A stretch of DNA of 52,661 nt from a virus, in IMG/VR virus record IMGVR_UViG_3300042541_000817, positions 1 through 52,661 of that record; one strand, written 5' to 3'. Numbering within the stretch: the first letter of the stretch is position 1; every line of letters begins with the position of its first letter. This document shows, piece by piece, positions 15,538-38,949 of the stretch. The notes under the pieces were generated by a model. That model worked only from the letters and a program-made list of their open reading frames with translations. It made no database searches and was not told where the DNA came from. Position numbers and translations under genes: made by a program.

Positions 15538-15933
15538 ATGCCTATTCACTCTTCTCTTGCTTTTGGTGCCGATCCAGTCACTATGCAGTGGAGCGTTGTT
15601 AGAGGAGATACTGGGACTCTAAGAGTAGAGTTCTATGAGGATAATGAAGTAGATTATTATGATACTACTGGGTGGATTTTTAGAGCAACTGCTTATGATC
15701 AATCTGGTAATGTTTTAGATGCCCTGGATTGTGAGCCTTCAGATGGTTTTGTAGATATTACAGCCCATCCTTCGGTTACAAAAAATTGGGGATCTAAATA
15801 TTCATCAATCGTGGCTCAACTACCATTTGATTTACAGGTAATAATTCCACAAAATATTGAAGACACTGTTTGGACTCCTGTTATTGGAACCATTCAAGTA
15901 TTAGGCGATGTTACCCCAGGAGGTACACTATAA
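15538..15933 (+). CDS. BppU-like virion protein
   Basis: A 131-residue beta-rich protein with the opening MQWSVVRGDTGTLRV, related to WTVVRGDSAAFRV in 26423-26806 and YYKGDTFEFRI in 17304-17756. Such domains resemble the N-terminal part of BppU-type baseplate or fibre proteins. The leaderless start at 15538 is preferred over the longer frame from 15412, which would pass through the promoter. Coupled to the next gene by TAATG. Confidence 0.65.
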   Translation: MPIHSSLAFGADPVTMQWSVVRGDTGTLRVEFYEDNEVDYYDTTGWIFRATAYDQSGNVLDALDCEPSDGFVDITAHPSVTKNWGSKYSSIVAQLPFDLQVIIPQNIEDTVWTPVIGTIQVLGDVTPGGTL

Positions 15934-16538
15934 TGGCAGTTATTAAGATTGTTCCAATGCCAGGCGCAGTTGGAGACAAGGGAGACGAAGGAGCCGTAGG
16001 CCCTCAAGGTCCACAAGGACAAACAGGACAAACAGGACAAAACGGACAAGATGCACTATGGTCATATCAAGGTGCATACAACCCATCTGCTGCTTATGCA
16101 GTTGGAGATGTCGTAGTTTATCAAGGACAACTTTATTATACAAAGTCAGTAACAACTGCTGGAACACTTCCAACAGATACTGCAAAGTTTGATTTAATTG
16201 CATCAAAGGGTGCAGATGGACAACCAGGAACTGATGGTGCCCCAGGTGCAGATGGTTCAACTCCATTTACTTTGGTAGGTGCATATGACAATGGTGCATC
16301 TTACAATTTAGGAATTGCTGTTTATTATAATGGCGGTACATATGTAAGAACTGGTAATCCACTTAATCCTGGATACCCTCCAGAAGTAGGTGCTATCAAT
16401 GCTTCATGGACACCTATTGCAGAAAAAGGCGCAGATGCTGAATTGCCAACGGGAGCAACAGGAACATTCCAAACCTCAGACAGTAAAATAGTTTCAGTAG
16501 TCAACGGAATCATTACATCTATAGAGCCACTGACTTAA
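15933..16538 (+). CDS. Collagen-like fibre protein with repeated WSYQGAY-type domain
   Basis: A 201-residue protein. Collagen-like Gly-X-Y triplets run at about 13-39 and again at about 91-107 and 166-177; between them two copies of a GAY-x(4)-(A/S)Y-x-(V/L)G-x-x-VYY-G domain, similar to small carbohydrate-binding modules of chitinases. Likely a trimeric, sugar-binding virion fibre. GPQGPQGQTG-type triplets have few prolines in the Y position. The start overlaps the previous stop. Confidence 0.75.
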   Translation: MAVIKIVPMPGAVGDKGDEGAVGPQGPQGQTGQTGQNGQDALWSYQGAYNPSAAYAVGDVVVYQGQLYYTKSVTTAGTLPTDTAKFDLIASKGADGQPGTDGAPGADGSTPFTLVGAYDNGASYNLGIAVYYNGGTYVRTGNPLNPGYPPEVGAINASWTPIAEKGADAELPTGATGTFQTSDSKIVSVVNGIITSIEPLT

Positions 16539-16558
16539 TATAGTGAGATAATAACTCC

Positions 16559-17296
16559 ATGGCTGTTTCTAAATCTATGGACTTTCCAGGTGCAAAAAAA
16601 TCATCTTATGCTGCACAAGTAGTTAGCCAAACCTCTCAAGTTACAGAAACACAGTTATACCCAGATTCTGCATTAAACTTTGTTCCAGTCCCTGGACCAC
16701 AAGGCCCACCTGGGCCAGCAGGAAGAGATGGAGAAAGAGGCGAACAAGGTTCCACGGGAAACATTGGACCCAAAGGCGAAAGAGGCCTGCCAGGCAAAGA
16801 TGGAGAAAGTTCTTTATCGGCATCTGGACAGCAGGCAGGTTGGGCATCATATACAAACAACGCAACCAAGCCTATAAAATTAGGAATTACCCAAGGTGAT
16901 GATGGATGGGTCACTATTTGGCTTGACACTAAAGATAAAACCCAGAATGAAAAATATATGCCAAAAGGCTGTACCAGTCTTTGGAACAGCCATCAACGAA
17001 TGCTAAACTTTCACGGTATAAAAGAAGGGTCCCAAGTATTCGTAACATACAACTTCGAACTAACCACCTATACACCTAATACTGAGGTTTGGCTAAGGAC
17101 ATATTTTGCAAGCAAGGATCAGGAGTTTGTCCAGTTTGTTGGATCTTTAAAATATCAGAATGTTTATAATCTTTCTGCTACCCAGCAATTTTTTATAGAA
17201 GATTCTGTCATGTGGGGCAATGGTGCTATACCACAGATTAGAACAGACTTTGATGCATCAGTAATACTCAATTCTATCTACGTCAGCGTGGTATAA
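16559..17296 (+). CDS. Collagen-like fibre protein with C-terminal globular head
   Basis: A 245-residue protein. A strict collagen-like stretch (about 41-81) includes GPPGPAG and GLPGKDG triplets, with proline in the Y position, the place hydroxylated in animal collagens. The C-terminal 150 residues form a beta-rich domain, probably a C1q/TNF-like trimer head. GATAAT is six bases before the ATG. A candidate substrate for the phage prolyl hydroxylase-like enzymes. Confidence 0.75.
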   Translation: MAVSKSMDFPGAKKSSYAAQVVSQTSQVTETQLYPDSALNFVPVPGPQGPPGPAGRDGERGEQGSTGNIGPKGERGLPGKDGESSLSASGQQAGWASYTNNATKPIKLGITQGDDGWVTIWLDTKDKTQNEKYMPKGCTSLWNSHQRMLNFHGIKEGSQVFVTYNFELTTYTPNTEVWLRTYFASKDQEFVQFVGSLKYQNVYNLSATQQFFIEDSVMWGNGAIPQIRTDFDASVILNSIYVSVV

Positions 17297-18356: not shown

Positions 18357-20399
18357 GTGGCAGAAGAGAATATTGACAACACCGTTAGTGGTAGCGGACT
18401 CTTCAATACCAAAATCCCTGGACTTTCAGACGCAGCCGATATTCAGGCAGCCCTAAGACTTTATCACTATGGATCTTATACTTATGATGGCGCCAACACA
18501 GATACTGGGCTTCTTTTAAATCCATCAATTGCAAAACACCTTCAAAACCTTGTAGATGCAGATACAGCCACTAATACATCACTAACAAACCACATATCAA
18601 ATACCGAAAATGTCCACGGTATTGAGGATACAGCAGATTTAGCAACACAATCATTTGTCAATACAGCAATTACTAATGCTATAAGTGGTGCTACTGGAGG
18701 ATACCCAGCCCTAGCAGGAGACGGTATTGATTGGAATTCTGTTGATTTACGATTTGATCTTGAACCACAACTATTAAATAATAATACTGTAATAACTAAG
18801 TCATCTGGATTTACTTTAGATCCCGTCGATGTTAATAAAACTATTTTGCTTTCTACATCATCTCCAATGAATTTAACTATCCCACTAAACTCTTCTGTTA
18901 ATATTCCTGTTGGATATAAGTACACTTTAGTTGAAATAGGATCTGGTAAAACAACTTTTGTTCCAGCATCAGGTGTAACAATTAACAGCAAAAACTCACA
19001 ACTATTTATTGATACACAGTATGGTCAGGCAACATTGGTAAAGGTTGATACAAATAGTTGGGTTGCTTATGGAGATATTTATGAAGGTGCTTCAAGCCCA
19101 ACACCTGTAGCACCTACACCAGTTGCTCCTACTCCTGTAGCCCCTACTCCTACGCCTACTCCTGTAGCGCCTACTCCTGTAGCACCTACACCAGTTGCTC
19201 CTACTCCTGTAGCACCTACACCAGTTGCTCCTACTCCTGTAGCACCTACACCAGTAGCGCCTACTCCAGTAGCGCCTACTCCAGTAGCGCCTACTCCAGT
19301 AGCGCCTACTCCAGTAGCGCCTACTCCAGTAGCACCTACTCCAGTTGCTCCTACTCCTGTAGCACCTACACCAGTAGCGCCTACTCCAGTAGCACCTAAT
19401 AATTTTGCTTATGCAACATTCTGTACTGATTCAGGACCAGACCAAGCAGGAGAAGGTCTCAACTTTACAGATTGTGGAAGTTTAGAAGCCTTTATTAATG
19501 GAAACTTTGTTGGTGTAAATAGTCTTGTATGTCAGATAGGTTCTTACCCAGCACTTCCTACAAATTGCGGGGAAACTTCAGGAATTTGGTATACATTCTG
19601 TGGTAACGTATCAGCAGGATATAATCCAGGAACTGTTATCGGACCAATATTTGATTCATCACAAACATGTTCTCAAGCACTAGCAGAACAAACATCATAT
19701 GGAGAAATTGGGTCAGGCTGGAACTGTGCAACTGGAACTTCTGGATCTTCTTCTGTACCAGCAGCAAATTGTGGAGCCACTCCTACTCCTGTAGCGCCTA
19801 CACCAGTTGCTCCAACACCAGTAGCACCTACTCCAGTAGCACCAACACCAGTTGCTCCAACACCAGTTGCTCCAACACCAGTTGCACCTACTCCTGTAGC
19901 GCCTACTCCAGTAGCACCAAGTTGTGTTCCAGCCGATGCATGGTCATACAACCAGTCTAAGTGTCAGTCATGCGGATATTACTTCAGCACAGAATTTGGA
20001 GAGTGCTCAACAACTCCTTGGAACACGCCAACACCAGTTGCTCCAACACCAGTTGCTCCAACACCAGTTGCTCCAACACCAGTTGCACCTACTCCTGTAG
20101 CGCCTACTCCTGTAGCACCTACTCCTGTAGCGCCTACTCCTGTAGCACCTACACCAGTTGCTCCAACACCAGTAGCACCTACTCCAGTAGCACCTACACC
20201 TGTAGCCCCTACGCCAGTAGCACCTACACCAGTTGCTCCAACACCAGTAGCACCTACACCTGTAGCAGCAACAGGAGTTCAGTGCACAGCCTTTGACATA
20301 AGTATTGGTGCATGCACTGGTGGAGGTTGCGATAATAGTGGCTGTGCTTCAGGTGGATCATGTAGTAATCCACAAAATTTTGCGGGATCAGGATGCTAA
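18357..20399 (+). CDS. TPVAP-repeat fibre protein
   Basis: A 680-residue protein with a GTG start after AGAGGTG. Residues 1-245 are a fibre base with a domain (GIDWNSVDLRFD, then NLTIPLNSS...PVG) also found in the 29641 protein. Then three blocks of TPVAP (about 20, 9 and 16 copies; residues about 246-347, 472-521 and 558-637) separate two Cys-rich domains, and a Cys-rich end (638-680) closes it. The repeats would form an extended polyproline II rod, like plant extensins or arabinogalactan proteins. Thr-Pro and Ala-Pro are good contexts for proline hydroxylation and O-glycosylation. The modification enzymes start 0.7 kb downstream. Confidence 0.85.
   Translation: MAEENIDNTVSGSGLFNTKIPGLSDAADIQAALRLYHYGSYTYDGANTDTGLLLNPSIAKHLQNLVDADTATNTSLTNHISNTENVHGIEDTADLATQSFVNTAITNAISGATGGYPALAGDGIDWNSVDLRFDLEPQLLNNNTVITKSSGFTLDPVDVNKTILLSTSSPMNLTIPLNSSVNIPVGYKYTLVEIGSGKTTFVPASGVTINSKNSQLFIDTQYGQATLVKVDTNSWVAYGDIYEGASSPTPVAPTPVAPTPVAPTPTPTPVAPTPVAPTPVAPTPVAPTPVAPTPVAPTPVAPTPVAPTPVAPTPVAPTPVAPTPVAPTPVAPTPVAPTPVAPTPVAPNNFAYATFCTDSGPDQAGEGLNFTDCGSLEAFINGNFVGVNSLVCQIGSYPALPTNCGETSGIWYTFCGNVSAGYNPGTVIGPIFDSSQTCSQALAEQTSYGEIGSGWNCATGTSGSSSVPAANCGATPTPVAPTPVAPTPVAPTPVAPTPVAPTPVAPTPVAPTPVAPTPVAPSCVPADAWSYNQSKCQSCGYYFSTEFGECSTTPWNTPTPVAPTPVAPTPVAPTPVAPTPVAPTPVAPTPVAPTPVAPTPVAPTPVAPTPVAPTPVAPTPVAPTPVAPTPVAPTPVAATGVQCTAFDISIGACTGGGCDNSGCASGGSCSNPQNFAGSGC
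19096..20268 (+). repeat. Three blocks of 15-bp TPVAP-coding repeats
   Basis: Tandem 15-bp units in blocks 19096-19398, about 19770-19918 and 20029-20268. Third positions vary between ACT/ACA, CCT/CCA, GTA/GTT and GCA/GCT/GCG/GCC, but long runs of identical units occur. Gain or loss of units would keep the frame and change rod length. Confidence 0.9.
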
Positions 20400-20417
20400 T
20401 AAAATGAAGGAGACAAT

Positions 20418-20828
20418 ATGTTAACAGACTCAAGTATTCTATATTCTAGTTACGAAAATGGACCAGGAGGAGTTCCTTTAGTCTGGGTTATAGATGGTCA
20501 GTGTGTATATGATATTCCCACCTCAAATGAGCATGCAGAAATGTTTGTGTTGAGTGATGAAGTTTTGGATATTTCTGAAGATTATCCAGACCATGAAGGC
20601 ATTACCGTTAGATTTGTTAAAGATGGAGAAACGGTTAATGAACTTCAAACATCTGAGTATTTTGGAAGCATACTTCTTAGCAACCCACAGGTCTTAAGTC
20701 TTTTTGACTACCCTTATGGAAGATACGTAGTATCTCCAAATGCTACATTTGATGGAGAAAAATTTATTATTTTGGGCAGAGATACTTCGTTGCTTATGCC
20801 GTGGCATCCAAGTCAAAATAAAGACTAA
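20418..20828 (+). CDS. Unknown protein downstream of TPVAP fibre
   Basis: A 136-residue acidic protein. A GAAGGAGA site precedes the ATG. It shares no recognised family, but sits between the fibre and the modification operon, so it might be a fibre chaperone or accessory subunit. Inference from position only. Confidence 0.7.
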   Translation: MLTDSSILYSSYENGPGGVPLVWVIDGQCVYDIPTSNEHAEMFVLSDEVLDISEDYPDHEGITVRFVKDGETVNELQTSEYFGSILLSNPQVLSLFDYPYGRYVVSPNATFDGEKFIILGRDTSLLMPWHPSQNKD

Positions 20829-20874
20829 TAACTTTTAGTGTATAATAGTTTTATAACGACTAAAGGGGACAATA

Positions 20875-21105
20875 ATGTCAAAATCAAAATGGCAAGAATA
20901 TAAAGAAAAAAATGGAGTTACTCCATTAGACATACTTAATCCAAACACAAAACATGCCTCTGAAGATTTGGCAACCACAAGACTATCTATTTGTAAAGTA
21001 TGTCCAGAATTAATTAAATTAACCACACAATGCAAAAAGTGTGGCTGCTTTATGGCTGCAAAAACAAAATTAGAAGCGGCAAAGTGTCCAATTGGAAAAT
21101 GGTAA
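20875..21105 (+). CDS. DUF6171-like zinc-binding protein
   Basis: A 76-residue protein. RLSICKVCPEL, then CKKCGCFMAAKTKL and a CPIGKW end match the DUF6171 pattern seen next to fibre and oxygenase genes in other phages. The five cysteines suggest a zinc ribbon. Own promoter (TATAAT about 35 bases upstream) and a GGGG ribosome site. First gene of the modification operon to 25141. Confidence 0.75.
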   Translation: MSKSKWQEYKEKNGVTPLDILNPNTKHASEDLATTRLSICKVCPELIKLTTQCKKCGCFMAAKTKLEAAKCPIGKW

Positions 21106-21106
21106 A

Positions 21107-21709
21107 ATGGAAAAAAACGAATTATGCCCTGGAATTTTTGTTTATAGTAATGTTATAGAAAATTTTATTTTTGATTCTTTGATTGAAGATATTGAAGAAG
21201 GGATGAAATATCTCAATATACAGTGGCAACAGTCTCAGGTAGAACACAAAGAAGGCGTAACAGTTGACACTAATTCAAGAGATACACAAATTATTGGTGT
21301 AGAATATCGAGATCATATTGTTGAAAATTTTTCAACACCACACGAAGCGTTTTACTTAAATCTTTCAAATATATTTTTTAAAGCGTTTAATCCAAGAGAA
21401 CATGATTACAAGTCTATGTTTGGCTGCCAGACTACTTGGCACGATCAGTACGGAATTTTAAAATACGGTGTTGGTCAAAAATTTACTAATCATATAGATG
21501 ATCACATAAATCATCATAGAAGAATTTCTACAACGTTTTATTTAAATGAAAATTATGAAGGTGGAGAAATTATTTTCCCTAGGTTTAATGTAAAATATAA
21601 ACCGAAAAAAAATGAATTATTAGTTTTTCCTTCTACGTTTGTTTATAATCATTCAGTATCTCCAGTTCTTGAAGGAGAAAGATACGCAGTTGTTAGTTGG
21701 ATGCGATGA
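21107..21709 (+). CDS. 2OG/Fe(II) oxygenase 1, prolyl 4-hydroxylase-like
   Basis: A 200-residue enzyme with the full active-site set: H129-x-D131 and H182 for iron, R192 for 2-oxoglutarate, and the YLNENYEGGEI segment typical of the P4H-type family. Such enzymes hydroxylate a C-H bond using O2 and 2-oxoglutarate, classically on proline. The ATG lies one base after the previous stop; a TTG further upstream is less likely. Substrate not shown by the sequence. Confidence 0.88.
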   Translation: MEKNELCPGIFVYSNVIENFIFDSLIEDIEEGMKYLNIQWQQSQVEHKEGVTVDTNSRDTQIIGVEYRDHIVENFSTPHEAFYLNLSNIFFKAFNPREHDYKSMFGCQTTWHDQYGILKYGVGQKFTNHIDDHINHHRRISTTFYLNENYEGGEIIFPRFNVKYKPKKNELLVFPSTFVYNHSVSPVLEGERYAVVSWMR

Positions 21710-22278
21710 AAGAGCCACAACTAGTTGATAAGATTTTAAGCAAAGAAGATTATGACAGGCTAAAGGATGCTTTGGTAAATCCTAAGAGTTTTGGGTTTGA
21801 TCCTGGCTTTAGTAGATATTGTATTGGGGATGGTGGACTTCCGATTCTAAAAGAATTAGCAGACAAACTGGTTCCTATTGCAAGAGAAGCCTTTGATAGC
21901 GAAAGATTATTACCTACATATACATTATTTGCTCATTATGAGGGGCAAAATCCAGAACCAAGTTTGTACAAACACAAAGACGACAACGCATGCACCTACA
22001 CTCTTGATATGTGTGTTTATCAGGTAGAGCCATGGGATATTTACGTTGATGACAAGGCCTATACTCTTTATCCAAATCAAGCCTTGGCATACTATGGAAA
22101 CGATCAGTTCCATTGGAGAGAAAAGTTTCCAAATCCCGAAACAAATCATGTTGCAATGATTTTCTTTCATTTTGCAGAACCAGATCACTGGTGGTTTGTC
22201 AAGGGTCCAGAATATTTGCAGGTAGTAAGAAAACAAATTACAGAAGAACAATGGAGACTCCAGTATGAAAACAAATAA
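21706..22278 (+). CDS. 2OG/Fe(II) oxygenase-like protein 2, divergent
   Basis: A 190-residue protein, coupled to oxygenase 1 by ATGA. H90-x-D92 and H136 (in FHWREKF) can bind iron, but the Arg or Lys expected ten residues after the last His is missing. It may bind 2-oxoglutarate differently. The fold pattern YTLDMCVYQ...LYPNQALAYYG supports the jelly-roll family. Likely works with its neighbour. Confidence 0.65.
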   Translation: MKEPQLVDKILSKEDYDRLKDALVNPKSFGFDPGFSRYCIGDGGLPILKELADKLVPIAREAFDSERLLPTYTLFAHYEGQNPEPSLYKHKDDNACTYTLDMCVYQVEPWDIYVDDKAYTLYPNQALAYYGNDQFHWREKFPNPETNHVAMIFFHFAEPDHWWFVKGPEYLQVVRKQITEEQWRLQYENK

Positions 22279-23302
22279 GATATTTTTTCAACACTGGAAT
22301 CCTTGCGGGTTAATAAATCAAGTAATGAGTCTAGAGTTAGCAATAGGTATTTCACATGAAACAAATGCAACTGTTGTAGTTCATAATGCAAGCAACAAGG
22401 GTGATCATTTATTTGATTTTAGGACTGTTCCAATTCACACTCCTTCAAGATTTCATAACATTCAAAGAAAAGGATTTACAAATCCAGACCAGTTTCCACA
22501 TCTATTAGATTTATTAGACTTTGATTCAAATTTAATTGTAATTGATCAAAAAATAGACAACTTTAAGCAAGAAGAATTAATAGTAGACGATATGTTAAAT
22601 AACTACTACTACAGTAATAGCCCAGAAATAACAGAAGATGAACTGGCATTCGCTGAAGGTAGACAAAGATTGCCACTAGATAGACCAATACATCTAAAAG
22701 GAACATTAGGATGGTACTCAAGATTCTTCTATAACAGAAGCCCTGAACTAGACAAGGCATTATCTTTAGTTAGGTTTAAGAAAGAGTACACAGACTTGGC
22801 CAAAAAGATATCTAATTCTTTAGGCAGATTTCAAGGTATGCATTTAAGACTAACTGACCATGTGCACATGTTTGAAACTACTCAAGAAATGTTTGAGTCT
22901 TGGATTAATAACTTTGAGAAAAATAACTTGCCAATAGTTTTGTCAACAGATGAACCAGGGCATAAAATGGTTGAAGATAATAAGCATAGATTTATGCTAT
23001 TAGATGAATACATTGTTAATAACTTTGCAGAAGACTTCAAATCCTTACAATTTCAGGATGAAGTAGTTTTTGGTTTAATCTGTAATCTAGTTATGCATGA
23101 TTCAGAAACTTTTGTTGGTACATCAGGAAGCACCTATACTGCATATATCCATAGAAATAGAAATCAAACTGGTATTGAAACTTGGAATTTCTTTGATAAT
23201 CCAGAAACAACAGAAGGTCACCCATATTCTTGGAATGGTTATCCACTAAACCCTGGCAGAAAAATGTGGTGGAGAGAATGGAAGGAGTCTAGATTAACAT
23301 GA
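22265..23302 (+). CDS. O-fucosyltransferase-like glycosyltransferase
   Basis: A 345-residue protein with the landmarks of GDP-fucose O-fucosyltransferases (PF10250 type): NPCGLINQVMSLE near residues 12-24 in the place of the GG-x-NNQ loop, HLRLTD at 193-198 for donor binding, and VGTSGSTYTAYI at 284-295. This fold attaches GDP-linked L-sugars to Ser or Thr of proteins. The neighbouring epimerase makes the L-galactose form, which differs from L-fucose only by an oxygen at C6. Overlaps the previous gene. Confidence 0.75.
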   Translation: MKTNKIFFQHWNPCGLINQVMSLELAIGISHETNATVVVHNASNKGDHLFDFRTVPIHTPSRFHNIQRKGFTNPDQFPHLLDLLDFDSNLIVIDQKIDNFKQEELIVDDMLNNYYYSNSPEITEDELAFAEGRQRLPLDRPIHLKGTLGWYSRFFYNRSPELDKALSLVRFKKEYTDLAKKISNSLGRFQGMHLRLTDHVHMFETTQEMFESWINNFEKNNLPIVLSTDEPGHKMVEDNKHRFMLLDEYIVNNFAEDFKSLQFQDEVVFGLICNLVMHDSETFVGTSGSTYTAYIHRNRNQTGIETWNFFDNPETTEGHPYSWNGYPLNPGRKMWWREWKESRLT

Positions 23303-24321
23303 AAACAGCATTAGTGCTTGGAGCAGGGGGCTTCATTGGAAGTCATATGGTAAAGCGTTTAAAGTCTGAAGGATATTGGGTTAGAGGTGTTGACTTAAAG
23401 AATCCAGATTTTTCAGATACTTATGCTGACGAGTTTATAGAAAGAGATCTATCTCTATATGATAATATGGAAAAAGTGATTCAGTTTAAAGGATATTCTG
23501 GTAACTTTTATAATGAAATTCCTTATAAGTTAATAGCATCCTTTGATGAAATATATCAGTTTGCAGCAGATATGGGCGGAGCAGGATATATTTTTACTGG
23601 AAATAATGATTCTCAAATTATGGAAAACTCTGCACTTATAAACCTTAATCTTTTAAGAGCACAATCAAGATTTAATGAAAAATATGCAATTAATAAAACC
23701 AAGATATTTTATTCAAGTTCTGCCTGCATGTATCCTGACTACAAACAGTTAGATGTTAATAATCCTGGACTTAAAGAGTCTGATGCATACCCTGCAGATC
23801 CTGACAGCGAGTATGGCTGGGAGAAACTATTTAGTGAGAGAATGTTCTTAGCATTTAATAGAAACAACAAGATCCCTGTAGCCATTGCCAGATATCATAA
23901 TATTTATGGACCAGAAGGAACTTGGGATGGTGGAAAAGAAAAAGCACCAGCAGCAATATGTAGAAAAGTTATTCAGTCAGATGGATTTATAGAAATTTGG
24001 GGGGATGGAGAACAAACCCGTTCATTCCTATATATAGATGAATGCATAGAGGCAACAAGAAGACTGATGGAATCAGATTTTACTGGGCCTGTTAATATTG
24101 GTTCTGAGGAAATGGTTACCATTAATCAACTTGTAGATATTGCTTGTAGTATTGAAGGAAAAACTTTAAGCAAGATGCATATCCCAGGTCCTTTGGGTGT
24201 TAGAGGAAGAAACTCCAATAATGACTTAGTTAGAGATAAGTTAGATTGGGACTATTCCATGTCTCTTAAAGATGGAATAGAAAAAACTTATAACTGGATC
24301 AAGGATCAAATAAATGGATAA
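23299..24321 (+). CDS. GDP-mannose 3,5-epimerase, plant-like
   Basis: A 340-residue SDR epimerase. GAGGFIGSHM (8-17) binds NAD. ADMGGAGYI (90-98), SSSACMYP with C143, Y172-GWEK176 and the GGKEKAPAA segment with K215 match the catalytic residues of Arabidopsis GME (C145, Y174, K178, K217), and the C-terminal half (HNIYGPEGTW, PVNIGSEEMV, IPGPLGVRGRNS) is close to it. The reaction turns GDP-D-mannose into GDP-L-galactose and GDP-L-gulose. ATGA overlap with the transferase upstream. GDP-mannose must come from the host. Confidence 0.87.
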   Translation: MKTALVLGAGGFIGSHMVKRLKSEGYWVRGVDLKNPDFSDTYADEFIERDLSLYDNMEKVIQFKGYSGNFYNEIPYKLIASFDEIYQFAADMGGAGYIFTGNNDSQIMENSALINLNLLRAQSRFNEKYAINKTKIFYSSSACMYPDYKQLDVNNPGLKESDAYPADPDSEYGWEKLFSERMFLAFNRNNKIPVAIARYHNIYGPEGTWDGGKEKAPAAICRKVIQSDGFIEIWGDGEQTRSFLYIDECIEATRRLMESDFTGPVNIGSEEMVTINQLVDIACSIEGKTLSKMHIPGPLGVRGRNSNNDLVRDKLDWDYSMSLKDGIEKTYNWIKDQING

Positions 24322-25141
24322 GCAAGAAGTTGTAAAAGAAGTTTTTCTTCAAGATGGTATTGGAGCACAATTATGGAGAAAACTATACTTAATGTCCTAT
24401 GCAAAATATTATAATTTGTTATTTGAAGATACACCAATTACAGATTTCTTAATTCATGAGTCTGACAAAGTACACAGTGAAGAAGAAAAAATTGAATTTA
24501 TAAATAAATTTAATACTATAATAAAAAATCCATGGGAAGGTATAGATTTTTCTAATCAAGACAATTTTGTTCTTTCCGAAAAGGTTGGACTGGGATACGA
24601 AAAACTACATCTAAATGCAGGAGTAGCCCCAGGACCCTGGCCATTTTTAGAAGTTGCCAAAGAATTTAGCACAATAGAACAAACTGAAAACAATGTAGTT
24701 ATTCACATACGAAGAGGCAATGTGATTCCAGAAAATCCAAGGTGGGTAGATGAGTCTGTCTATATAGAAATGCTAAAACAATTACCAAACTTTCTAAAGA
24801 AAATAAACTTTGTTCCAGACAGAGTAATAATTTTAACAGATGCTCCAGATTCAAACAAAAAGTTTAAGCCTATAAATCAAAATCAATTAGATAAGTGGAG
24901 ACAGCCTTATTTGCACAAAGACGAAAACAATTCTTTTGACACAATTTCCTTAAACTTTGAATTACTTAAAGATGCTTATCTAGGTATTGAAATTTTAAAT
25001 AGTTTAGATACTTACACAGCATTTACTATGATGGTGATGGCAAAAGTCTTAATAACTGGAAGATCTGCATTTAGTCAATCTGCTGGTCTGCTATCAAAAA
25101 ATACTGTTTTGTCAGTTGACAACTATAGAAGTTTCTTTTAA
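24314..25141 (+). CDS. Fucosyltransferase-like glycosyltransferase 2
   Basis: A 275-residue protein. GIGAQLWRKLYLM (15-27) corresponds to the N-terminal loop and VVIHIRRGN (128-136) to the HxRRxD donor-binding motif of GT11-type alpha-1,2/1,6-fucosyltransferases; LITGRSAFSQSAGLLS near the end is the usual C-terminal motif. It likely extends the glycan begun by the other transferase. Last gene of the operon, before a terminator. Confidence 0.75.
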   Translation: MDKQEVVKEVFLQDGIGAQLWRKLYLMSYAKYYNLLFEDTPITDFLIHESDKVHSEEEKIEFINKFNTIIKNPWEGIDFSNQDNFVLSEKVGLGYEKLHLNAGVAPGPWPFLEVAKEFSTIEQTENNVVIHIRRGNVIPENPRWVDESVYIEMLKQLPNFLKKINFVPDRVIILTDAPDSNKKFKPINQNQLDKWRQPYLHKDENNSFDTISLNFELLKDAYLGIEILNSLDTYTAFTMMVMAKVLITGRSAFSQSAGLLSKNTVLSVDNYRSFF

Positions 25142-25157
25142 AGTGTGCAATAAAACA

Positions 25158-25192
25158 CCCCCAGGGATTTCTCCAAGGGGGCATTTTTTTTT
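25158..25192. terminator. Bidirectional intrinsic terminator
   Basis: CCCCC (25158-25162) and GGGGG (25177-25181) with inner AGG/CC pairing, followed on the plus strand by about nine T. It separates the plus-strand modification operon from the convergent lytic gene. Confidence 0.85.
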
Positions 25193-25197
25193 ATATA

Positions 25198-25761
25198 TTA
25201 CTTAGGAAATTTAGCCATCCACTCTTTGGTCCTTGGGGTAATACCCTTCCATGAAGACCAGTCTTCTCCGCCCCTAGACATGTAGTATGCAATCTCAGCA
25301 TTTTTGACGGGATTGAACAATTCAGCATTAGAGTCCAAATCAAACTTATCCCTGCGGTCTGGGCCCAGTCTATCAATCATATTAATTTGGAACATTCCAT
25401 AAGAGGAGTCCCCAGTCTTATGGTTGCCATTAAACGCCAAAGGCCTACCATTAGATTCTTTCTTGGCAATGGCCCAAGCCACTACAAGATCTTGCCCCTT
25501 AAACCCTATAAGGGAAAGGAGTTGCTTTAGTTCAATGTCGGTCAGAGATGTCTTATTCTCAAAACTCTCTAGCCTTTTTGCCTTAGAAACCAAAAAAACC
25601 TCTTTCGAGGCGTTTCCTTGCTCTTGAGCCTGTTCTATGCTCAAACTATTTTTGTCACCTATTCGTGTTTCAGCATTAGCAGCGTTTGACAAAGTCGCTA
25701 CTAAAGTCAGTATGCTGAGTATGCTAATGATCTCTTTGTTTCTTTCGATAAATTTAATCAT
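25198..25761 (-). CDS. Exported lytic transglycosylase (SLT/lysozyme-like)
   Basis: A 187-residue protein. An N-terminal hydrophobic segment (11-25) ends at an A-x-A signal cleavage site (about 28-30). The catalytic domain has AIAKKESNG with Glu102 and the DSSYGMFQINM motif of SLT-fold enzymes that cut peptidoglycan glycan strands. An AAGGAGG site precedes the ATG. It stands alone on the minus strand between two fibre regions, with no holin beside it. Confidence 0.87.
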   Translation of the reverse strand: MIKFIERNKEIISILSILTLVATLSNAANAETRIGDKNSLSIEQAQEQGNASKEVFLVSKAKRLESFENKTSLTDIELKQLLSLIGFKGQDLVVAWAIAKKESNGRPLAFNGNHKTGDSSYGMFQINMIDRLGPDRRDKFDLDSNAELFNPVKNAEIAYYMSRGGEDWSSWKGITPRTKEWMAKFPK

Positions 25762-25864
25762 AGTTTCCTCCTTAGAAAACAATAACACCTTGGTAGGTGT
25801 TACTACCAAGTATAACATGAAATTTATTGAAAAGTCAAGTTTATAGGGTGGTATAATAAAGATT

Positions 25865-26410
25865 ATGCCACAAGCGTCATCTAACTATCCTACTATGCAA
25901 TATCCTATTGCTTCAGATCCCGTGAATGTACACGGAGATTTTAAAGTATTAGTTGATGCTTTAAATAATATTCTTCCTCCCCTGGGATACGGCGCAGCAT
26001 ATCTTGATGTTAGAAATACTACAGGCACAGCAATTTCTCAGGGCATTCCAGTATTTATTAGTGGTAGTCTTTCTGGAAAATCATTAATTCAAAAATATGA
26101 TCCATCAAGTGTATCTCATAATCCAGATGTTCCAATTTTAGGTTTAGTAAAAAATGATATTCCAAATAATTCTAATGGTTTGGTTATTGTCTCTGGAGTT
26201 ATTCAAATGAATACAACAGGTTTGGGTTCTGCTGGAACAAAAATTTATGTAGACAATACTGGAACCCTTGTTGCGGGTCGTCCATCAACTGGTCCAGCAA
26301 GATATATAGCAGTTGTTGCTATTCAGGCAACGCTTGCTGAAGGTGGAATGCTAATTGTTCAAACAAAGGGTAACGGTACATGGGGAGCCCTTAAAGACGG
26401 GTTGTCGTGA
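25865..26410 (+). CDS. Virion fibre or decoration protein
   Basis: A 181-residue beta-rich protein with the segments YLDVRNTTGTAISQGIPVFISG and LGLVKNDIPNN...VVSGVI (residues 46-67, 95-115), typical of head-fibre or tail-spike domains in aquatic phages. TATAAT (25852-25857) lies seven bases before the ATG. Exact virion place unknown. Confidence 0.65.
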   Translation: MPQASSNYPTMQYPIASDPVNVHGDFKVLVDALNNILPPLGYGAAYLDVRNTTGTAISQGIPVFISGSLSGKSLIQKYDPSSVSHNPDVPILGLVKNDIPNNSNGLVIVSGVIQMNTTGLGSAGTKIYVDNTGTLVAGRPSTGPARYIAVVAIQATLAEGGMLIVQTKGNGTWGALKDGLS

Positions 26411-27547: not shown

Positions 27548-29101
27548 ATGGCAACAGTAGTAAAAGACTTTAAAGTAAAGAATGGTCTCATTGTCGAAGG
27601 CACAACAGCAACAGTAAACAATTTTGACGTTCTTACTAAGAAAACAGACGATCAAACATACATCGTCAATTTAATTGGTGGTACAGCCACCTCAGCAAAC
27701 GAAGCAAACAAGGTTGTAAAGCGTGATGCTTCAGGCAACTTTGCAGCAGGAACAATTACAGCAAACCTAACTGGTGCTGTAACTGGTAACGCTTCAACAG
27801 CAACAACTCTTGAAACTTCTCGTACAATTGAACTTACTGGAGATGTAACTGGTCAAGTTAACTTCAATGGTTCACAAAATGTTCAAATTTCAACAACTCT
27901 TAATGGCTCTTTTGCAACAGATGCAGAAGTTGCTACAGCAAAGGGCGAAGCAATTGATGCTGCAGCAGCATACACAGACACTCGTGAAGGTCTAATCACA
28001 ACTGCTTATCAGTCATACGCTGACACAGCAGAAGCAGATGCTAAGGCATACACAGACACTCGTGAAGGTCTAATCACAACTGCTTATCAGTCATACGCTG
28101 ACACAGCAGAAGCAGATGCAGTAACAACTGCAAACGCTTACACAGATGCTGAAATTGCAGCACTTGTAGATTCAGCACCAGAACTTCTTGATACACTCAA
28201 TGAACTGGCAGCAGCAATTGGAGACAATCCAAACTATGCAACAGATCTTGCTACATCAGTAGGAACAAAGGTTTCAAAGGCTGGCGATACAATGACTGGA
28301 CTTCTTGTCCTTTCAGCAGATCCATCAGCAAACCTTGGAGCAGCAACTAAGCAGTATGTAGATACAGCAGAATCAGACGCAAATGCATACACAGACACTC
28401 GTGAAGGTCTAATCACAACTGCTTATCAGTCATACGCTGACACAGCAGAAGCAGATGCTAAGACATATGCAGATGGTCTTGCTTCAACAATTAACGGAAC
28501 TATTGCAGCACTTGATACAGACGATGTAGCAGAAGGTTCAAACTTTTACTACACTGCTGCTCGTGCAAAGGCAGAGGCAGCAACGCTTCTTGCAAATGCA
28601 ATAAAGACAAACATTACAATTACCAAGGATGGATCAGATAATCTAACAATTACCGCAGAAAACGGTGTTGCAGATTCTTCAACTACAGACCTTGCAGAAG
28701 GAACAAACCTTTATTTTACAAATGCTCGTGCAGTAACCGCTCTTGAGGCAGTCACACCTGACTTCCCTGCAGTAGAGATTGCAAGCATTGCAAAGCAGGT
28801 AGCAGCAGAAGCATCTGTTGAAACTGCAAGCACAAACACAGCAGTGTCATGGGCCAAGGCTTCATATCGCTCTGCTGAATTCTTGGTTAAGATTGCTAAT
28901 GGATCTCACACAGATGTTTCAAAGGTTATCCTAACACTTGACACTTCAGACAATGTCGCTATCACAGAATACGCAATGGTTGGAACAAATGGTTCTCTTG
29001 GATCAGTTTCAGCAGATGTTTCTGGTAACGATGTTCGTCTTCGTGTTACAACAGCCAACAACACCTCAGTAGTAGGCGTTGTCGGAACACTTTTAAAGTA
29101 A
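27548..29101 (+). CDS. Tail fibre with AYTDTREG repeats
   Basis: A 517-residue fibre. N-terminal MATVVKDFKVKNGLIVEG motif is shared with the 29136 protein. Three near-identical 26-residue repeats begin AYTDTREG (DNA copies at 27968, 28046 and 28385), followed by LAEGTNLYFTNARAV-type segments common in phage fibres and the C-terminal domain shared with 27085-27531. AAGGAGA site. Likely a trimeric receptor-binding or accessory fibre. Confidence 0.8.
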   Translation: MATVVKDFKVKNGLIVEGTTATVNNFDVLTKKTDDQTYIVNLIGGTATSANEANKVVKRDASGNFAAGTITANLTGAVTGNASTATTLETSRTIELTGDVTGQVNFNGSQNVQISTTLNGSFATDAEVATAKGEAIDAAAAYTDTREGLITTAYQSYADTAEADAKAYTDTREGLITTAYQSYADTAEADAVTTANAYTDAEIAALVDSAPELLDTLNELAAAIGDNPNYATDLATSVGTKVSKAGDTMTGLLVLSADPSANLGAATKQYVDTAESDANAYTDTREGLITTAYQSYADTAEADAKTYADGLASTINGTIAALDTDDVAEGSNFYYTAARAKAEAATLLANAIKTNITITKDGSDNLTITAENGVADSSTTDLAEGTNLYFTNARAVTALEAVTPDFPAVEIASIAKQVAAEASVETASTNTAVSWAKASYRSAEFLVKIANGSHTDVSKVILTLDTSDNVAITEYAMVGTNGSLGSVSADVSGNDVRLRVTTANNTSVVGVVGTLLK

Positions 29102-29640: not shown

Positions 29641-31191
29641 ATGGCAACAAGAATGCAACAGCGCAGAGGTACTGCAGCCCAATGGACGGCTGCCAATCCA
29701 GTATTAGCAGCAGGTGAAATCGGTTTTGAAACCGACACAAGTAAATTTAAAATGGGTAACGGGTCCTCAGCATGGACTGCTCTAACATATTTTGCTAACG
29801 CAGCAGAATTAGCAGCCATTATTGATGGTGCCCCAGATCTTCTAAATACTCTTAATGAACTAGCAGCATCCATTGGAGATGACCCAGCATTTTTAACAAC
29901 AATAGCAACAAATCTGAGCAATCACGCAACAGATACAACAGTAATTCACGGAATTGCAGATACAGCACAACTTGCAACCTTGTCTTCAGTTAATGAAGCA
30001 ATTTCTGATTCACTTGGGACACACACTGCAGACACAACCCTTGTTCATGGTATTGCCGATACTTCACTTCTTGTAACAACAGCAGATCTCAACACATCGG
30101 TTGGTACAACAGCAAGTGATGCAGCAGCAGCACTTTCTGCACATAATTCAGATACAACTCTAGTTCATGGTATTGCTGATACATCTCTTCTTGCAACTAC
30201 AGGAGATGTTGAAACAGCATCATCCGATGCAGCAGCAGCACTTTCTGCACATAATTCAGATACAACTCTAGTTCATGGTATTGCTGATACATCTCTTCTT
30301 GCAACTACAGGAGATGTTGAAACAGCATCATCCGATGCAGCAGCAGCACTTCTTGCACACGGACTATTAACTGAAAATGTTCATGGAATTTTAAATACAG
30401 CAGATCTAGCAACAACATCATTTGTTACAGACGCAGTCGAAGGCGCAGCAGTAGATCAGTCATCACTGGCTGGAACTGGAATTGACTGGAACTCTGTTGA
30501 CATTAGATTTGATATTGATTCAACTGTAGCAACTAAGACATACGCAGATGATGCAGTATCAACACACAATGACGACACAACAAATGTACACGGCATTGCA
30601 GACACATCACTTCTTGCAACAACTGCAGATGTAGCAGCAGTTACAAAAACCACTCTAGGTCTTGGAAATGTTGACAATACATCAGATGCTGACAAGCCAG
30701 TTTCAACAGCAACTGTAACAGCAATCGCAACAGCAAAGTCTGAAGCAATTGCAGAAGTAACAGCAGTTATTGATGGTGCACCAAACGCACTTAACACCCT
30801 TAACGAACTTGCTGCAGCACTTGGCGATGATGCTAACTTTGCTTCAACAGTTACAACATCACTTGCAACAAAGGTAGATTCATACACACCAATTACACAA
30901 AAGACAGCATCTTATACTCTATCAACGCTAGATCACAGAGATGATTTAATTGAAATGGGTTCAGCATCAGCACTTACATTAACAATCCCACTAAATTCAT
31001 CAATTGCTTACCCAGTTGGAACATCACTAGATATCCTTCAAACTGGTGCAGGTCAAGTAACGATTGCTGGAGCAGCAGGAGTTACCGTAAATGCAACACC
31101 AGGTCTTAAGTTGAGAACTCAGTGGTCATCTGCAACTCTTTTCAAGAGAGCAGAAAACACATGGGTTGTCTACGGCGACTTGACAGCGTAA
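29641..31191 (+). CDS. Tail fibre with Mtd-like N-terminus and AHNSDTTLVHGIADT repeats
   Basis: A 516-residue fibre. MATRMQQRRGTAAQW with the following AGEIGFETDTSKFKMG is the N-terminal domain also found in Mtd-type receptor-binding proteins. Several D-T-T-x-V-H-G-I-A-D-T repeats follow, two of them identical at DNA level (30118-30333). The C-terminal 130 residues match the base domain of the TPVAP protein. TATAAT and AAGGAGA lie upstream. Confidence 0.8.
   Translation: MATRMQQRRGTAAQWTAANPVLAAGEIGFETDTSKFKMGNGSSAWTALTYFANAAELAAIIDGAPDLLNTLNELAASIGDDPAFLTTIATNLSNHATDTTVIHGIADTAQLATLSSVNEAISDSLGTHTADTTLVHGIADTSLLVTTADLNTSVGTTASDAAAALSAHNSDTTLVHGIADTSLLATTGDVETASSDAAAALSAHNSDTTLVHGIADTSLLATTGDVETASSDAAAALLAHGLLTENVHGILNTADLATTSFVTDAVEGAAVDQSSLAGTGIDWNSVDIRFDIDSTVATKTYADDAVSTHNDDTTNVHGIADTSLLATTADVAAVTKTTLGLGNVDNTSDADKPVSTATVTAIATAKSEAIAEVTAVIDGAPNALNTLNELAAALGDDANFASTVTTSLATKVDSYTPITQKTASYTLSTLDHRDDLIEMGSASALTLTIPLNSSIAYPVGTSLDILQTGAGQVTIAGAAGVTVNATPGLKLRTQWSSATLFKRAENTWVVYGDLTA
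30118..30333 (+). repeat. Two 108-bp tandem copies in fibre gene
   Basis: Units 30118-30225 and 30226-30333 are practically identical at nucleotide level and encode 36 residues each; a partial third copy follows. A recent in-frame duplication. Confidence 0.85.
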
Positions 31192-31223: not shown

Positions 31224-32096
31224 ATGGCAGCAGGTAAGAAATCAGGGAGAAAGTCCCAAGCGTCAAATGACTTTTTGGAGCCATTAAAGCCAACAATTAC
31301 TAGTGCTACAAACGTAGGAACAGGTCGTGCGTTTAATAATGGTGCAGTTACTGTTGCATTTTCTTTGCCTGCACTTTCTCCAGCAGCCACATCTTTTACA
31401 GTAACAGCAAGCACAGGACAGACAGCAACTGGAGCATCTTCTCCACTAACCGTAACTGGAATTGCTTCTTCAGCAGCACCAACATTTACAGTAACAGCAA
31501 CTAACGCAGCAGGAACCTCTGCTGCTTCTGATCCATCTGCTGCAGTAACGGTAACAACAGTTCCAGCAACTCCCTCTGCTCCTACTGCTACGACTGGAGT
31601 AGACTTAGATACAGTATCTTGGACAGCCCCTAATAATGGTGGATCTGCGATTACTTCGTATACTTGGGCGTCTTCAGATGGGAAGGGTGCAACTCTTAAT
31701 GCAACCTCTACCACTGTAGTTCAAGAAGGAAGCACTTCACAAACATATACTGTTTATGCAACAAATGCAAATGGAAACTCTTTGGTTTCTCCTGCATCTA
31801 ATTCTGTTACCACTACCCCGCCATTTTTCCCTCCATTCTTCCCACCATTCTTCCCATTCTTCCCTCCATTTTTCCCTCCATTCTTCCCATTCTTCCCACC
31901 GTTCTTCCCATTCTTCCCATTCTTCCCATTCTTCCCACCGTTCTTCCCATTCTTCCCATTCTTCCCACCATTCTTCCCGTTCTTCCCATTCTTCCCATTC
32001 TTCCCACCGTTCTTCCCATTCTTCCCATTCTTCCCACCATTTTTCCCACCACGCTTTGGAGGATGCGACTGCGTCTGTAATGGACTCTGTGTCTAA
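31224..32096 (+). CDS. FnIII-like protein with Phe-Pro-only repeat
   Basis: A 290-residue protein. Residues about 25-195 are Ig/fibronectin III-like domains (VPATPSAPTAT...SYTWASSDG). Residues about 198-276 contain only Phe and Pro, as FFPP and FFPF units; the end is RFGG followed by CDCVCNGLC. The Phe-Pro stretch is too hydrophobic for an ordinary soluble linker; it may insert in membranes or fibre cores. Possible substrate of the phage oxygenases. AGGAGA site. Confidence 0.8.
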   Translation: MAAGKKSGRKSQASNDFLEPLKPTITSATNVGTGRAFNNGAVTVAFSLPALSPAATSFTVTASTGQTATGASSPLTVTGIASSAAPTFTVTATNAAGTSAASDPSAAVTVTTVPATPSAPTATTGVDLDTVSWTAPNNGGSAITSYTWASSDGKGATLNATSTTVVQEGSTSQTYTVYATNANGNSLVSPASNSVTTTPPFFPPFFPPFFPFFPPFFPPFFPFFPPFFPFFPFFPFFPPFFPFFPFFPPFFPFFPFFPFFPPFFPFFPFFPPFFPPRFGGCDCVCNGLCV

Positions 32097-32630: not shown

Positions 32631-33344
32631 ATGACAATTTATGATGAAAATGAAACTCCATGGTTTACTAAAGATAGATCAGAAACATCACTAAATAGGT
32701 ATTCATCAAGGAATATCGGCAACAACATCTTAGTTGAAAATCCAGCCCTAGGAATTAATTTATACAGAAATGTATTTTCAAAAGAAGATTCTGAAAGATA
32801 TATTAAAATTCTTGAATCTAATTTAGGCGGTAATGGTAAATACAAATGGTCAGAGGCAAAAGTAACCAACTCTGATGTTCCAATTAAAAAGGCTAGAGAT
32901 GCTGTAGACTTTAGATTTAAGCAAGAAAACTTAGGTCCAAGAGACGAACACAATGCTGAACTTTTAGACTTACATGAAGAAATATATCAAAAGTTAAAGT
33001 TTTGCGTTGATGATTATGCACGGTATTGGGGAATAAATGTCATATACTATGAAGCCTTTAACTTTGTAAAATATGAAGGAGAAGGAACACACTTCAATAT
33101 TCATGCAGACCATGGACCAATGTATAACTGTACAGTGTCTGCCGTTGTCTATATAAATGAAGATTACGAGGGGGGAGAGATTAGGTTTCCGAGAATGGAT
33201 AACTACACTCATACTCCAAAAATAGGAGACATTGTTCTTTGTCCATCTAACTATATTTATGAGCATGCATCTTTGCCAATGAAAGAAGGAACTAAATATT
33301 GTGTTGTCGTAATGACAGACATTAATGAACTGGGACACAAGTAG
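32631..33344 (+). CDS. 2OG/Fe(II) oxygenase 3, P4H-like
   Basis: A 237-residue enzyme: H158-x-D160, H212 and K222 (Lys in place of Arg, as in animal prolyl 4-hydroxylases), plus VVYINEDYEGGEI. A 70-residue N-terminal extension sets it apart. TATAAT and AAAGGA precede it. It is closest in layout to the 34121 enzyme (both have YNCTVS after the first metal motif), indicating duplication. Confidence 0.88.
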   Translation: MTIYDENETPWFTKDRSETSLNRYSSRNIGNNILVENPALGINLYRNVFSKEDSERYIKILESNLGGNGKYKWSEAKVTNSDVPIKKARDAVDFRFKQENLGPRDEHNAELLDLHEEIYQKLKFCVDDYARYWGINVIYYEAFNFVKYEGEGTHFNIHADHGPMYNCTVSAVVYINEDYEGGEIRFPRMDNYTHTPKIGDIVLCPSNYIYEHASLPMKEGTKYCVVVMTDINELGHK

Positions 33345-34111
33345 TGTCTTTAGTTGCAAAGTTTACAGCATTCAGGCCTTGGATAAACAAAGAGGATATC
33401 TCTGTTCCTGTTCCTACACAAAAAGAAATACCAGACTGGTATAAGGATGCAGATAGATTTGCAAAAATGCCAAACGGAGAATACTATAAAGCAACAAAAG
33501 AGGTTTGTCCATTTCCCAAAGAAGGAACAACAGATGACTATGGAAAGATCCCAACATGGAAAGCGTGTCCTGCAATTATGGATGCGTTTGCGACAGGATA
33601 TGTATTTAAAACTCCTTGTGATCTAACATTTGCTAAAAATTCTCAGGGAATAATTAATGTAACAATTAATGACCCTAAGTATAAAGACTTTTGTACTCAA
33701 AGACCTCCAATGCCACAATTCGAACATCCAAAAGGATACTACCAACACCATTTTGCCTGGAGTTCTCCGTGGGGCCTAGAACTTCCAGAAGGATATAGTG
33801 CATTATTTATGACTCCAATGAACAGGTTTGATCTTCCATTTTTAAATACAACTGGAATTGTTGACTCTGACAAAGTTCATCTTCTTGGAAGTTTTCCATT
33901 TTTTATTGCAGATGGTTGGGAAGGCACTATTCCAGCAGGAACCCCATATTTGCAAGTCCTTCCATTTAAAAGAGAAAATTGGGATCATGATATAGAGATT
34001 TCAGATCAATCTTCTATATATGGTAAAATGGTAGATAACGCAAAGTTCTATCGTCAACCTGACGGGGGCGTATATATTAAAAAAGTTTGGTCACGCAGAG
34101 AGTATAAATAG
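33344..34111 (+). CDS. DUF6065-like protein A
   Basis: A 255-residue protein with GTG start that overlaps the previous stop. Segments VPVPTQKEIPDWYK near residue 20, PWGLELPEGYSALFMTPMNR (about 140-160), and IPAGTPYLQVLPFKRE (about 207-222) match the layout of DUF6065-type proteins of phages, whose role is unknown. It is interleaved with oxygenases, so it may supply or present their substrate. Confidence 0.6.
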   Translation: MSLVAKFTAFRPWINKEDISVPVPTQKEIPDWYKDADRFAKMPNGEYYKATKEVCPFPKEGTTDDYGKIPTWKACPAIMDAFATGYVFKTPCDLTFAKNSQGIINVTINDPKYKDFCTQRPPMPQFEHPKGYYQHHFAWSSPWGLELPEGYSALFMTPMNRFDLPFLNTTGIVDSDKVHLLGSFPFFIADGWEGTIPAGTPYLQVLPFKRENWDHDIEISDQSSIYGKMVDNAKFYRQPDGGVYIKKVWSRREYK

Positions 34112-34120
34112 GAGATACAA

Positions 34121-34804
34121 ATGCAAACATGGACAGATAAAGAAAGTCTTGGAAATGGAATAACCTGTTATAGAGGGGTTATTAAAAAAGAGTTTGATGT
34201 AGTCAATAGGCTTGAAAATACTTTAGGTTCTGTTGCTGGGTACGGAGAGTTGTCTACAGAAGGTAAAAGATATCACTGGATGCCAGCATATGTTGGTTAT
34301 CAACAACTTATGCCAGACTACAGAGACTGTGTAGATTTTAAATTTAAAAAAACAGACATTGAACAAGATAAAAGTGAAGAGTCTTTAAAGTTGCAGTCTC
34401 TTTGGCAGGACATCTATGATGCACAATCTGCAGCAGTAGAGGACTACAGACGAGACTACAACATTATGCCACTTAAATATTGGGAAGCCTTTAATTTTAT
34501 TAAATATGGTCCAGGCCAACACTTTAAAGAGCATCATGATCATGGATACTCCTACAACTGTACTGTTTCGTTGGTCGCTTATGTAAATGATGACTATGAG
34601 GGTGGAGAGTTATTTTTTAGACTACAGGGTTTAAACATTAAGCCAAAGGCTGGAGATCTTTACATCTTCCCATCTAACTTTATGTATCCTCATCAGGCTA
34701 TGCCAGTTCATTCTGGAACTAAATACTCTATTGTTACCATGCTTGACTATAGTAAAAAGTATCATACGCCAGACATGTATGATCCTAAATGGGATAATGA
34801 ATAG
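34121..34804 (+). CDS. 2OG/Fe(II) oxygenase 4, P4H-like
   Basis: A 227-residue enzyme: H138-x-D140, H191 and K201, with VAYVNDDYEGGEL. Sister of the 32631 enzyme by the shared GYSYNCTVS/GPMYNCTVS and SGTKYSIVTM/EGTKYCVVVM segments. AGGAGA site before the ATG. Confidence 0.88.
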   Translation: MQTWTDKESLGNGITCYRGVIKKEFDVVNRLENTLGSVAGYGELSTEGKRYHWMPAYVGYQQLMPDYRDCVDFKFKKTDIEQDKSEESLKLQSLWQDIYDAQSAAVEDYRRDYNIMPLKYWEAFNFIKYGPGQHFKEHHDHGYSYNCTVSLVAYVNDDYEGGELFFRLQGLNIKPKAGDLYIFPSNFMYPHQAMPVHSGTKYSIVTMLDYSKKYHTPDMYDPKWDNE

Positions 34805-35514: not shown

Positions 35515-35966
35515 GTGAACTAAATCCAACACATGAAGATATAGTAAGCGAATATATAAAAAATGCCAAAGAAGGAAAGGTTGGCCATTACATGATAACA
35601 GTTGCTAGAGATGGGGAGTCTCCAGTACGGTCTATAATATCATTTGACAACATAGACGAGGCATTTAAAGGTTACTCAATGTATGAAGATGCTGGGTTTG
35701 CAAAAGATTATCTTACAGTTTCCCTATATCAGCCATCAGGAATAGTCACTACAAAAGTTTTAAAAAGAAATCATGCTGGAGATCCTTCGTTTGTTAGGCA
35801 AAATTATATTGATACGGTTGAAGCCTTGCACTCTGTTAAACATAAGTTAAGCAAAGAAGACTACGAAGAGATGTGTATTAAAATTGTTACCTCATTTGCA
35901 AAAGACAACTGGAGATTTAATGCAGACAGGTTTTTAAAACAACTAGAAATAGAAAGGACATTGTAG
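35511..35966 (+). CDS. Unknown protein in oxygenase cluster
   Basis: A 151-residue soluble protein, ATGA overlap with the DUF6065 gene. The N-terminal half has a small alpha/beta pattern (GHYMITVARDGESP); the rest is helical. Not recognised. Confidence 0.65.
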   Translation: MSELNPTHEDIVSEYIKNAKEGKVGHYMITVARDGESPVRSIISFDNIDEAFKGYSMYEDAGFAKDYLTVSLYQPSGIVTTKVLKRNHAGDPSFVRQNYIDTVEALHSVKHKLSKEDYEEMCIKIVTSFAKDNWRFNADRFLKQLEIERTL

Positions 35967-38938: not shown

Positions 38939-38949
38939 GGAGAAATACT

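Follow-up and report, generated by a model that had tools for sequence, protein, structure and literature searches.

Proline-rich rods of a candidate phage fibre protein and the prolyl-4-hydroxylase-like genes that adjoin them

What kind of protein is encoded by a phage gene that carries long arrays of the peptide TPVAP, and what might the genes resembling prolyl-4-hydroxylases (P4Hs) be doing just downstream of it? The question is raised by the gene at 18357-20399 of IMGVR_UViG_3300042541_000817, a single IMG/VR virus record whose 52,661 bases were analysed as one stretch, hereafter the window. The record is that of a tailed phage whose portal, protease and capsid genes lie at 45.9-50.0 kb. 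Its host is likely actinobacterial, because the portal resembles those of Streptomyces phages of Stanwilliamsviridae (46-48% identical). The gene product, here called the rod protein, begins with 246 non-repetitive amino acids (aa), the base, followed by three TPVAP arrays, the rods, with Cys-rich segments, the knobs, between and after them; a Pfam scan of the whole 680-aa protein matched no family. The reading favoured here, held with a little more confidence than doubt, is that this protein is a virion appendage whose Pro-rich rods undergo hydroxylation, and perhaps subsequent glycosylation, by the neighbouring enzymes.

Rod units and neighbouring enzymes across the family

Viral contigs hold at least 286 stretches that encode relatives of the base, and 57 distinct full-gene lineages were compared. 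Among these relatives the base is 47-100% identical while the rod unit differs, being TPVAP, VTP, AVTP, TP, PTPTT, PTPTPVA, APAPV or Thr-rich, with a single type mostly dominating any one protein; the base tree of 57 rows requires at least 35 rod-unit changes. The Cys pattern of knob K2 (Table 1) recurs beside TPVAP, PT, VTP and other rods, and the tails of relatives also carry PASTA and fn3 domains as well as weak CBM, TSP1 and Hint matches. Between lineages L016 and L017 the base is 99.5% identical over 600 nt, yet the rod is PT in one and TPVAP in the other and the downstream enzyme block differs. Beyond changes in length, whole rod units have been replaced between lineages and knobs have been shuffled.

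Downstream of the rod gene in the window lie two genes of the 2-oxoglutarate (2OG)-dependent oxygenase type, called A and B, and several candidate sugar enzymes (Table 1). The solved sequences nearest to type A are Bacillus P4Hs (3itq/5hv0, E 2e-7), and the H-x-D...H metal ligands and the 2OG-binding Arg (H140, D142, H193, R203) are kept in 34 of 34 sequences, from which we infer a P4H-like enzyme with a putative action on peptidyl proline. Type B found no match in a PDB sequence search; its structure model (pLDDT 91.7) has a double-stranded beta-helix fold, and the top Foldseek matches include PHD2, the PBCV-1 enzyme vCPH (5c5t) and AlkB. In the first 1.5 kb downstream of rod genes, P4H-like genes number 33 in 89 kb (0.37/kb), compared with 13 in 558 kb (0-0.07/kb) in the other bins of the same contigs. 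Relatives with Thr-rich rods encode, just downstream, a protein of the N-acetylglucosamine (GlcNAc) transferase family PF11397 (E 1e-20 to 1e-39), which corresponds to CAZy GT60, the Skp1 hydroxyproline/polypeptide GlcNAc transferases. No PF11397 gene was found beside the window rod gene, and a PDB sequence search with the PF11397 protein gave no match.

The enzyme set varies with the composition of the rod. Type A or type B is present in 47 of the 49 lineages whose tail exceeds 10% Pro and in 0 of 8 below, and PF11397 in 16 of 23 lineages above 20.5% Thr and in 1 of 34 below (Fisher 2.7e-8 and p 6e-8, respectively, the A-or-B union and all three cut-offs, for Pro, for Thr and for the A score, having been chosen post hoc). 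Type A alone is associated with long exact Pro arrays (median 57 vs 15 Pro, p 7e-6), where membership of the class is set by a gap in scores, at least 172 vs at most 109 in intact loci. That gap defines the class because BLAST clustering put type A together with the divergent 2OG genes found next to Thr-rich rods (39 lineages, p 0.25). For type A alone and tail Pro fraction, a rank test was not significant (p 0.31). The window carries both A and B. In a screen of fourteen downstream gene families, the one most strongly linked to Pro-poor rods was PF11397, and a radical SAM/SPASM gene leans the same way (p 6e-4). Plain Fisher tests overstate independence, since the lineages are related and rod and enzymes may be transferred jointly. 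When the base tree is taken into account, about 6 independent pairs agree with the link between type A and long Pro arrays and 0 oppose it (p ~0.03), the best value among tree-corrected tests, none of which ran in the opposite direction. Altogether, the evidence that rod composition and neighbouring enzyme set change together across the family is suggestive to good.

In the proposed appendage, a conserved fibre-like base ends in a beta domain, and the three (TPVAP)n rods would hold the small Cys-rich knobs apart, the knobs being putative binding modules with a presumed role in receptor contact. If extended as polyproline II, at about 0.31 nm per residue, the rods would measure roughly 31, 15 and 25 nm. 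Their prolines would be hydroxylated by A and/or B, and sugar might be added afterwards by the FucT-like enzyme or the downstream sugar enzymes. An O-glycosylated, mucin-like rod, with sugars on Thr or hydroxyproline, is a possibility in view of the glycosyltransferase genes downstream. We infer in this way the modification and stiffness of the rods, their location on the virion and their receptor role.

Several points weigh against this proposal. Besides the post hoc choices given above, the tree-corrected pairs are few, and both A or B with Pro and PF11397 with Thr come to about 3.4 pairs to 0, which is not significant. Rod and downstream enzymes are adjacent, which allows them to be swapped together, as between L016 and L017. 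Six more PF13640 genes (32631, 34121, 35993, 37530, 38276, 38950) stand far from the rod gene, so 2OG enzymes in this phage may have other jobs; a seventh distant 2OG-oxygenase gene (36628) was seen by protein scan only. The PF13640 cluster (32631-39579) has the fibre genes on one side and a class II ribonucleotide reductase on the other, and the Streptomyces relative BoomerJR has none of these PF13640 2OG-oxygenase genes. The first 139 aa of the base were modelled poorly, with pLDDT mostly <60. Finally, the P4H of PBCV-1 hydroxylates peptides, yet its virions yielded no hydroxyproline (PMC7019647).

The main rival to hydroxylated rods is that they are flexible, protease-resistant Pro/Thr linkers, like those that join modules in secreted bacterial enzymes, and that the enzymes encoded nearby act elsewhere and are tied to the rods only by ancestry and block exchange. 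This is judged unlikely, although it deserves serious weight: it would fit the many unit types that are tolerated, the movement of rod and enzyme genes as a block and the many other 2OG genes of the phage, but enzyme class tracks composition both ways, Pro with 2OG oxygenases and Thr with the GlcNAc transferase. Moreover, a small gene stands between rod and enzymes in 56/57 lineages regardless of composition, the tree requires at least 35 changes of rod unit vs 16 of type A, and most other downstream families show no association, with exceptions that include the radical SAM gene.

That the 2OG oxygenases serve the metabolism of the infected host or the repair of nucleic acids, and stand beside the rod gene incidentally, is considerably less probable. 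Such roles, in nitrogen signalling or DNA repair, have already been proposed for cyanophage 2OG oxygenases (PMC3037559), and cyanophages are also the isolates whose genes come nearest to type A; against this stand the concentration of A-type genes within 1.5 kb downstream of rod genes, their absence beside Pro-poor rods and the prolyl hydroxylases that are their nearest solved sequences.

Rod arrays and changes in their length

The initial annotation had counted about 45 TPVAP repeats and had drawn three Pro-rich rods with Cys-rich domains. Its layout agrees with the positions of arrays and Cys residues, and its count with the 43 exact units (19 + 9 + 15) and the partial units at array edges. 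TRF recovers all three arrays with a period of 15 (19107-19398, 19782-19918 and 20031-20267). The 18 Cys of the protein are all confined to the segments between and after the arrays, which form two blocks between arrays, the first of two domains, and a third block at the C-terminal end. The 43 units comprise 15 distinct 15-mers, and every difference among them falls at a third codon position, with 0 amino-acid changes, so the TPVAP peptide itself is selected and the array is not a chance low-complexity stretch. A collagen-like rod was considered and ruled out: the TPVAP unit has no Gly, so Gly-X-Y triplets are absent. When knob K2 and rod were used as query against 50,697 isolate phage records, no match was obtained at the sensitivity used.

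It had also been proposed that rod length may differ among virions or strains while the frame is kept. Between strains this finds support, and within one population it is a prediction. In the window and in three contigs from three other samples (L001-L003), the gene is identical and unit counts are equal. Lineage L116, 99.24% identical to window 19920-26089 (6,184 bases), has 16 units in rod 3 instead of 15, with four copies of ACACCAGTTGCTCCA in place of three. Three further near-identical sets (L019 vs L020-22, L058 vs L051/L083, and L082/L088 vs L066/L069/L087) are exactly one unit apart with identical flanks, the unit being 5 or 7 aa, and L027 and L029 are one whole knob apart. These comparisons support shifts of rod length by whole units, in frame, between near-identical phages. 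It is improbable that the differences in unit number are artefacts of short-read assembly. The arrays do reach 300 bp, partly of identical units, in records that are metagenome assemblies; but the differences are exactly one unit and in frame, that in L116 sits in a run of 45 vs 60 bp, shorter than ordinary reads, and the four mutually identical contigs give one count.

The base, virion membership and neighbouring features

Residues 135-241 of the rod protein match the minor tail or structural families phrog_8780, 21978 and 16053 (E 1e-12 to 5e-14 for phrog_8780/21978), and a domain of the minor tail proteins of Gordonia phages shares 35-42% identity with residues 144-241 (tblastn best 42%). 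A structure model of the base, built from 20 relatives and confident only from about residue 140 (aa 140-246), was matched by Foldseek to the Pa223 capsid spike (3e-5), the KP1 baseplate and CBA120 TSP4 with prob 1.00, and more weakly to T4 gp10. Because of this homology to minor tail proteins and these spike and baseplate folds, the base is read as that of a phage spike or fibre, on tail or head, a reading supported by sequence and model; it is probably trimeric. A rod-less paralogue at 29641-31191 carries Mtd_N as its N-terminal domain, and its last domain is the one that closes the base of the rod protein; it also holds 108-nt tandem repeats at 30118-30359. In 5 lineages (L033, L061, L078, L092, L117) the base is a separate open reading frame (ORF), of 252 aa in L033, and the TPVAP rods form their own ORF starting MSPLFRGPSGIGIFLAA (L033:1363-3858, and likewise in the other four).

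The initial annotation had called this a virion protein, a term upheld by homology and position rather than by direct detection. The reading of the rod protein as a secreted or cell-surface protein of the infection stage would suit this lack of direct evidence and a gene placed upstream of the portal, unlike the Streptomyces relative, whose tail genes come after the tape measure, but it is the least probable of all, as the base resembles domains of phage minor tail and spike proteins, the neighbours include collagen-like fibre proteins and the Mtd_N fibre paralogue, and no homologue (0) was confirmed in 84,980 species genomes (prophage or host), in which only two peptide patterns were scanned.

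Table 1. Predicted features of the rod-protein locus (window coordinates)
Feature	Position	Strand	Details
Rod-and-knob fibre protein gene	18357..20399	+	680 aa, GTG start; open frame; 3 identical IMG/VR contigs and 57 related lineages
Conserved N-terminal segment	18357..18773	+	aa 1-139; IDNT...ALRLYHYG motif; invariant columns; low-confidence model
Beta domain of phage spikes/minor tail proteins	18774..19079	+	aa 140-241; phrog, tblastn, Foldseek
Rod 1	19098..19397	+	aa 248-347; 19 TPVAP units
Cys-rich knob K1a	19398..19568	+	aa 348-404; homologous segments in L006, L007, L016
Cys-rich knob K1b	19569..19775	+	aa 405-473; 60-81% identical copies in L017, L101, L074
Rod 2	19776..19919	+	aa 474-521; 9 TPVAP units
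Cys-rich knob K2	19920..20024	+	aa 522-556; C-x12-C-x2-C-x10-C; 68 matches in 34 ORFs
Rod 3	20025..20267	+	aa 557-637; 15 TPVAP units; 16 in near-identical L116
C-terminal Cys-rich knob K3	20268..20396	+	aa 638-680; 98% in L116, 42% in L074
Small ORF U	20418..20828	+	Present in 7 lineages
DUF6171-like Cys-rich small ORF	20875..21105	+	PF19668, phrog_13558; adjoins rod gene in 56/57 lineages
Type A, P4H-like 2OG-Fe(II) oxygenase	21107..21709	+	PF13640 E 1e-17
Type B, 2OG-oxygenase-fold protein	21706..22278	+	No Pfam match; H90-x-D92 and H136 conserved
O-FucT-like glycosyltransferase candidate	22265..23302	+	PF10250 E 2e-4, below cut-off; homologue downstream in 15 lineages
NAD-dependent epimerase/dehydratase, nucleotide-sugar type	23299..24321	+	PF01370 E 5e-35
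Possible glycosyltransferase	24314..25141	+	Weak phrog_2644 match only

Other repeat-bearing ORFs are present in the window. Two with short collagen-like Gly-X-Y stretches (PF01391) lie at 15870-17296, one of them with a CBM_5_12 match; a fibre-type ORF at 27548-29101 contains an exact 78-nt tandem duplication (27968-28119); and a small ORF with QAPEPV repeats (50108-50539) follows the capsid gene. The ORF at 31224-32096, of low complexity and virion type, has a PKD/fn3-like start followed by a (PPFF/PFF)n rod and is Cys-rich at its end, with the PF13640 gene at 32631 about 0.5 kb downstream; the PPFF unit also occurs inside the rod-protein tails of L015, L017, L019-L022 and L065.

Among the relatives, a Hint/intein-like C-terminus was noticed by eye in the rod proteins of L004, L007, L008, L015 and L024-L029. 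Pfam support for Hint_2 at rod-protein C-termini is weak (3/35 members, best E 0.0017), and self-cleavage at such ends is possible. A divergent 2OG oxygenase abuts or overlaps the end of Thr-rich rod genes in L015, L024, L025 and L198, and the radical SAM/SPASM gene was found mostly near Thr-rich rods (L182, L134, L141, L145, L025, L014, L016, L175).

Known systems and significance

In plants, extensins and arabinogalactan proteins carry Ala-Pro, Thr-Pro and Val-Pro repeats and are served by prolyl hydroxylases and glycosyltransferases. The likeness of these hydroxyproline-rich glycoproteins to the rod protein is functional only, with no ancestry implied, and they are made in the eukaryotic secretory pathway. 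Among viruses, the chlorovirus PBCV-1 is comparable through vCPH, one of the top fold matches of type B. It is a eukaryotic virus, whereas here the enzyme belongs to a tailed phage and adjoins a Pro-rich virion-type protein that has composition-matched variants. We know of no rod protein beside the P4H gene of PBCV-1, and the substrates of vCPH reportedly include Pro-rich repeats encoded by the viral genome. The PBCV-1 enzyme hydroxylates Pro-containing peptides, and its role is unknown (PMC7019647); the use of P4H by viruses has been termed cryptic in a study of the Baltic virome (PMC9301287).

Collagen-like fibres offer a second comparison. EPclA/B, encoded by prophages of enterohaemorrhagic Escherichia coli, are trimeric, with a repetitive rod between globular domains and a dumbbell shape in electron microscopy (PMC3368898). 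A repetitive rod flanked by globular domains is shared with the rod protein, and the window holds the two short collagen-like ORFs described above, but its rods are without Gly-X-Y triplets. Bacteria and viruses have been said to lack the prolyl hydroxylases required for collagen (PMC3368898), whereas the window phage carries several P4H-like genes. In the Gordonia phage minor tail proteins (phrog_8780), the domain shared with the base forms the C-terminal end, whereas here 440 aa of rods and knobs follow it.

A search of the open-access literature, with subscription papers outside its scope, returned no earlier description of hydroxyproline or Pro-rich rods in phage fibres. The rod protein is of a known kind, the modular phage fibre, and possibly of a new kind if its modification is shown. 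It is put forward tentatively, at somewhat less than even confidence, that in the virion fibres of uncultured tailed phages exchangeable low-complexity rods each travel with their cognate modifying enzymes, Pro-rich rods with prolyl hydroxylases and Thr-rich rods with a GlcNAc transferase, and that rods bearing hydroxyproline or glycan would hold apart interchangeable binding knobs. This would be a modular adhesion system, modified chemically, of a sort undescribed for phages. For the abundant viral P4Hs, the Pro-rich rod, encoded some hundreds of bases upstream, is a concrete and testable candidate substrate, and the family includes close relatives in which rod and enzymes have been exchanged naturally. 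As a likely host-contact protein, it would combine a constant base with fast change in the length and chemistry of its rods and in its knobs.
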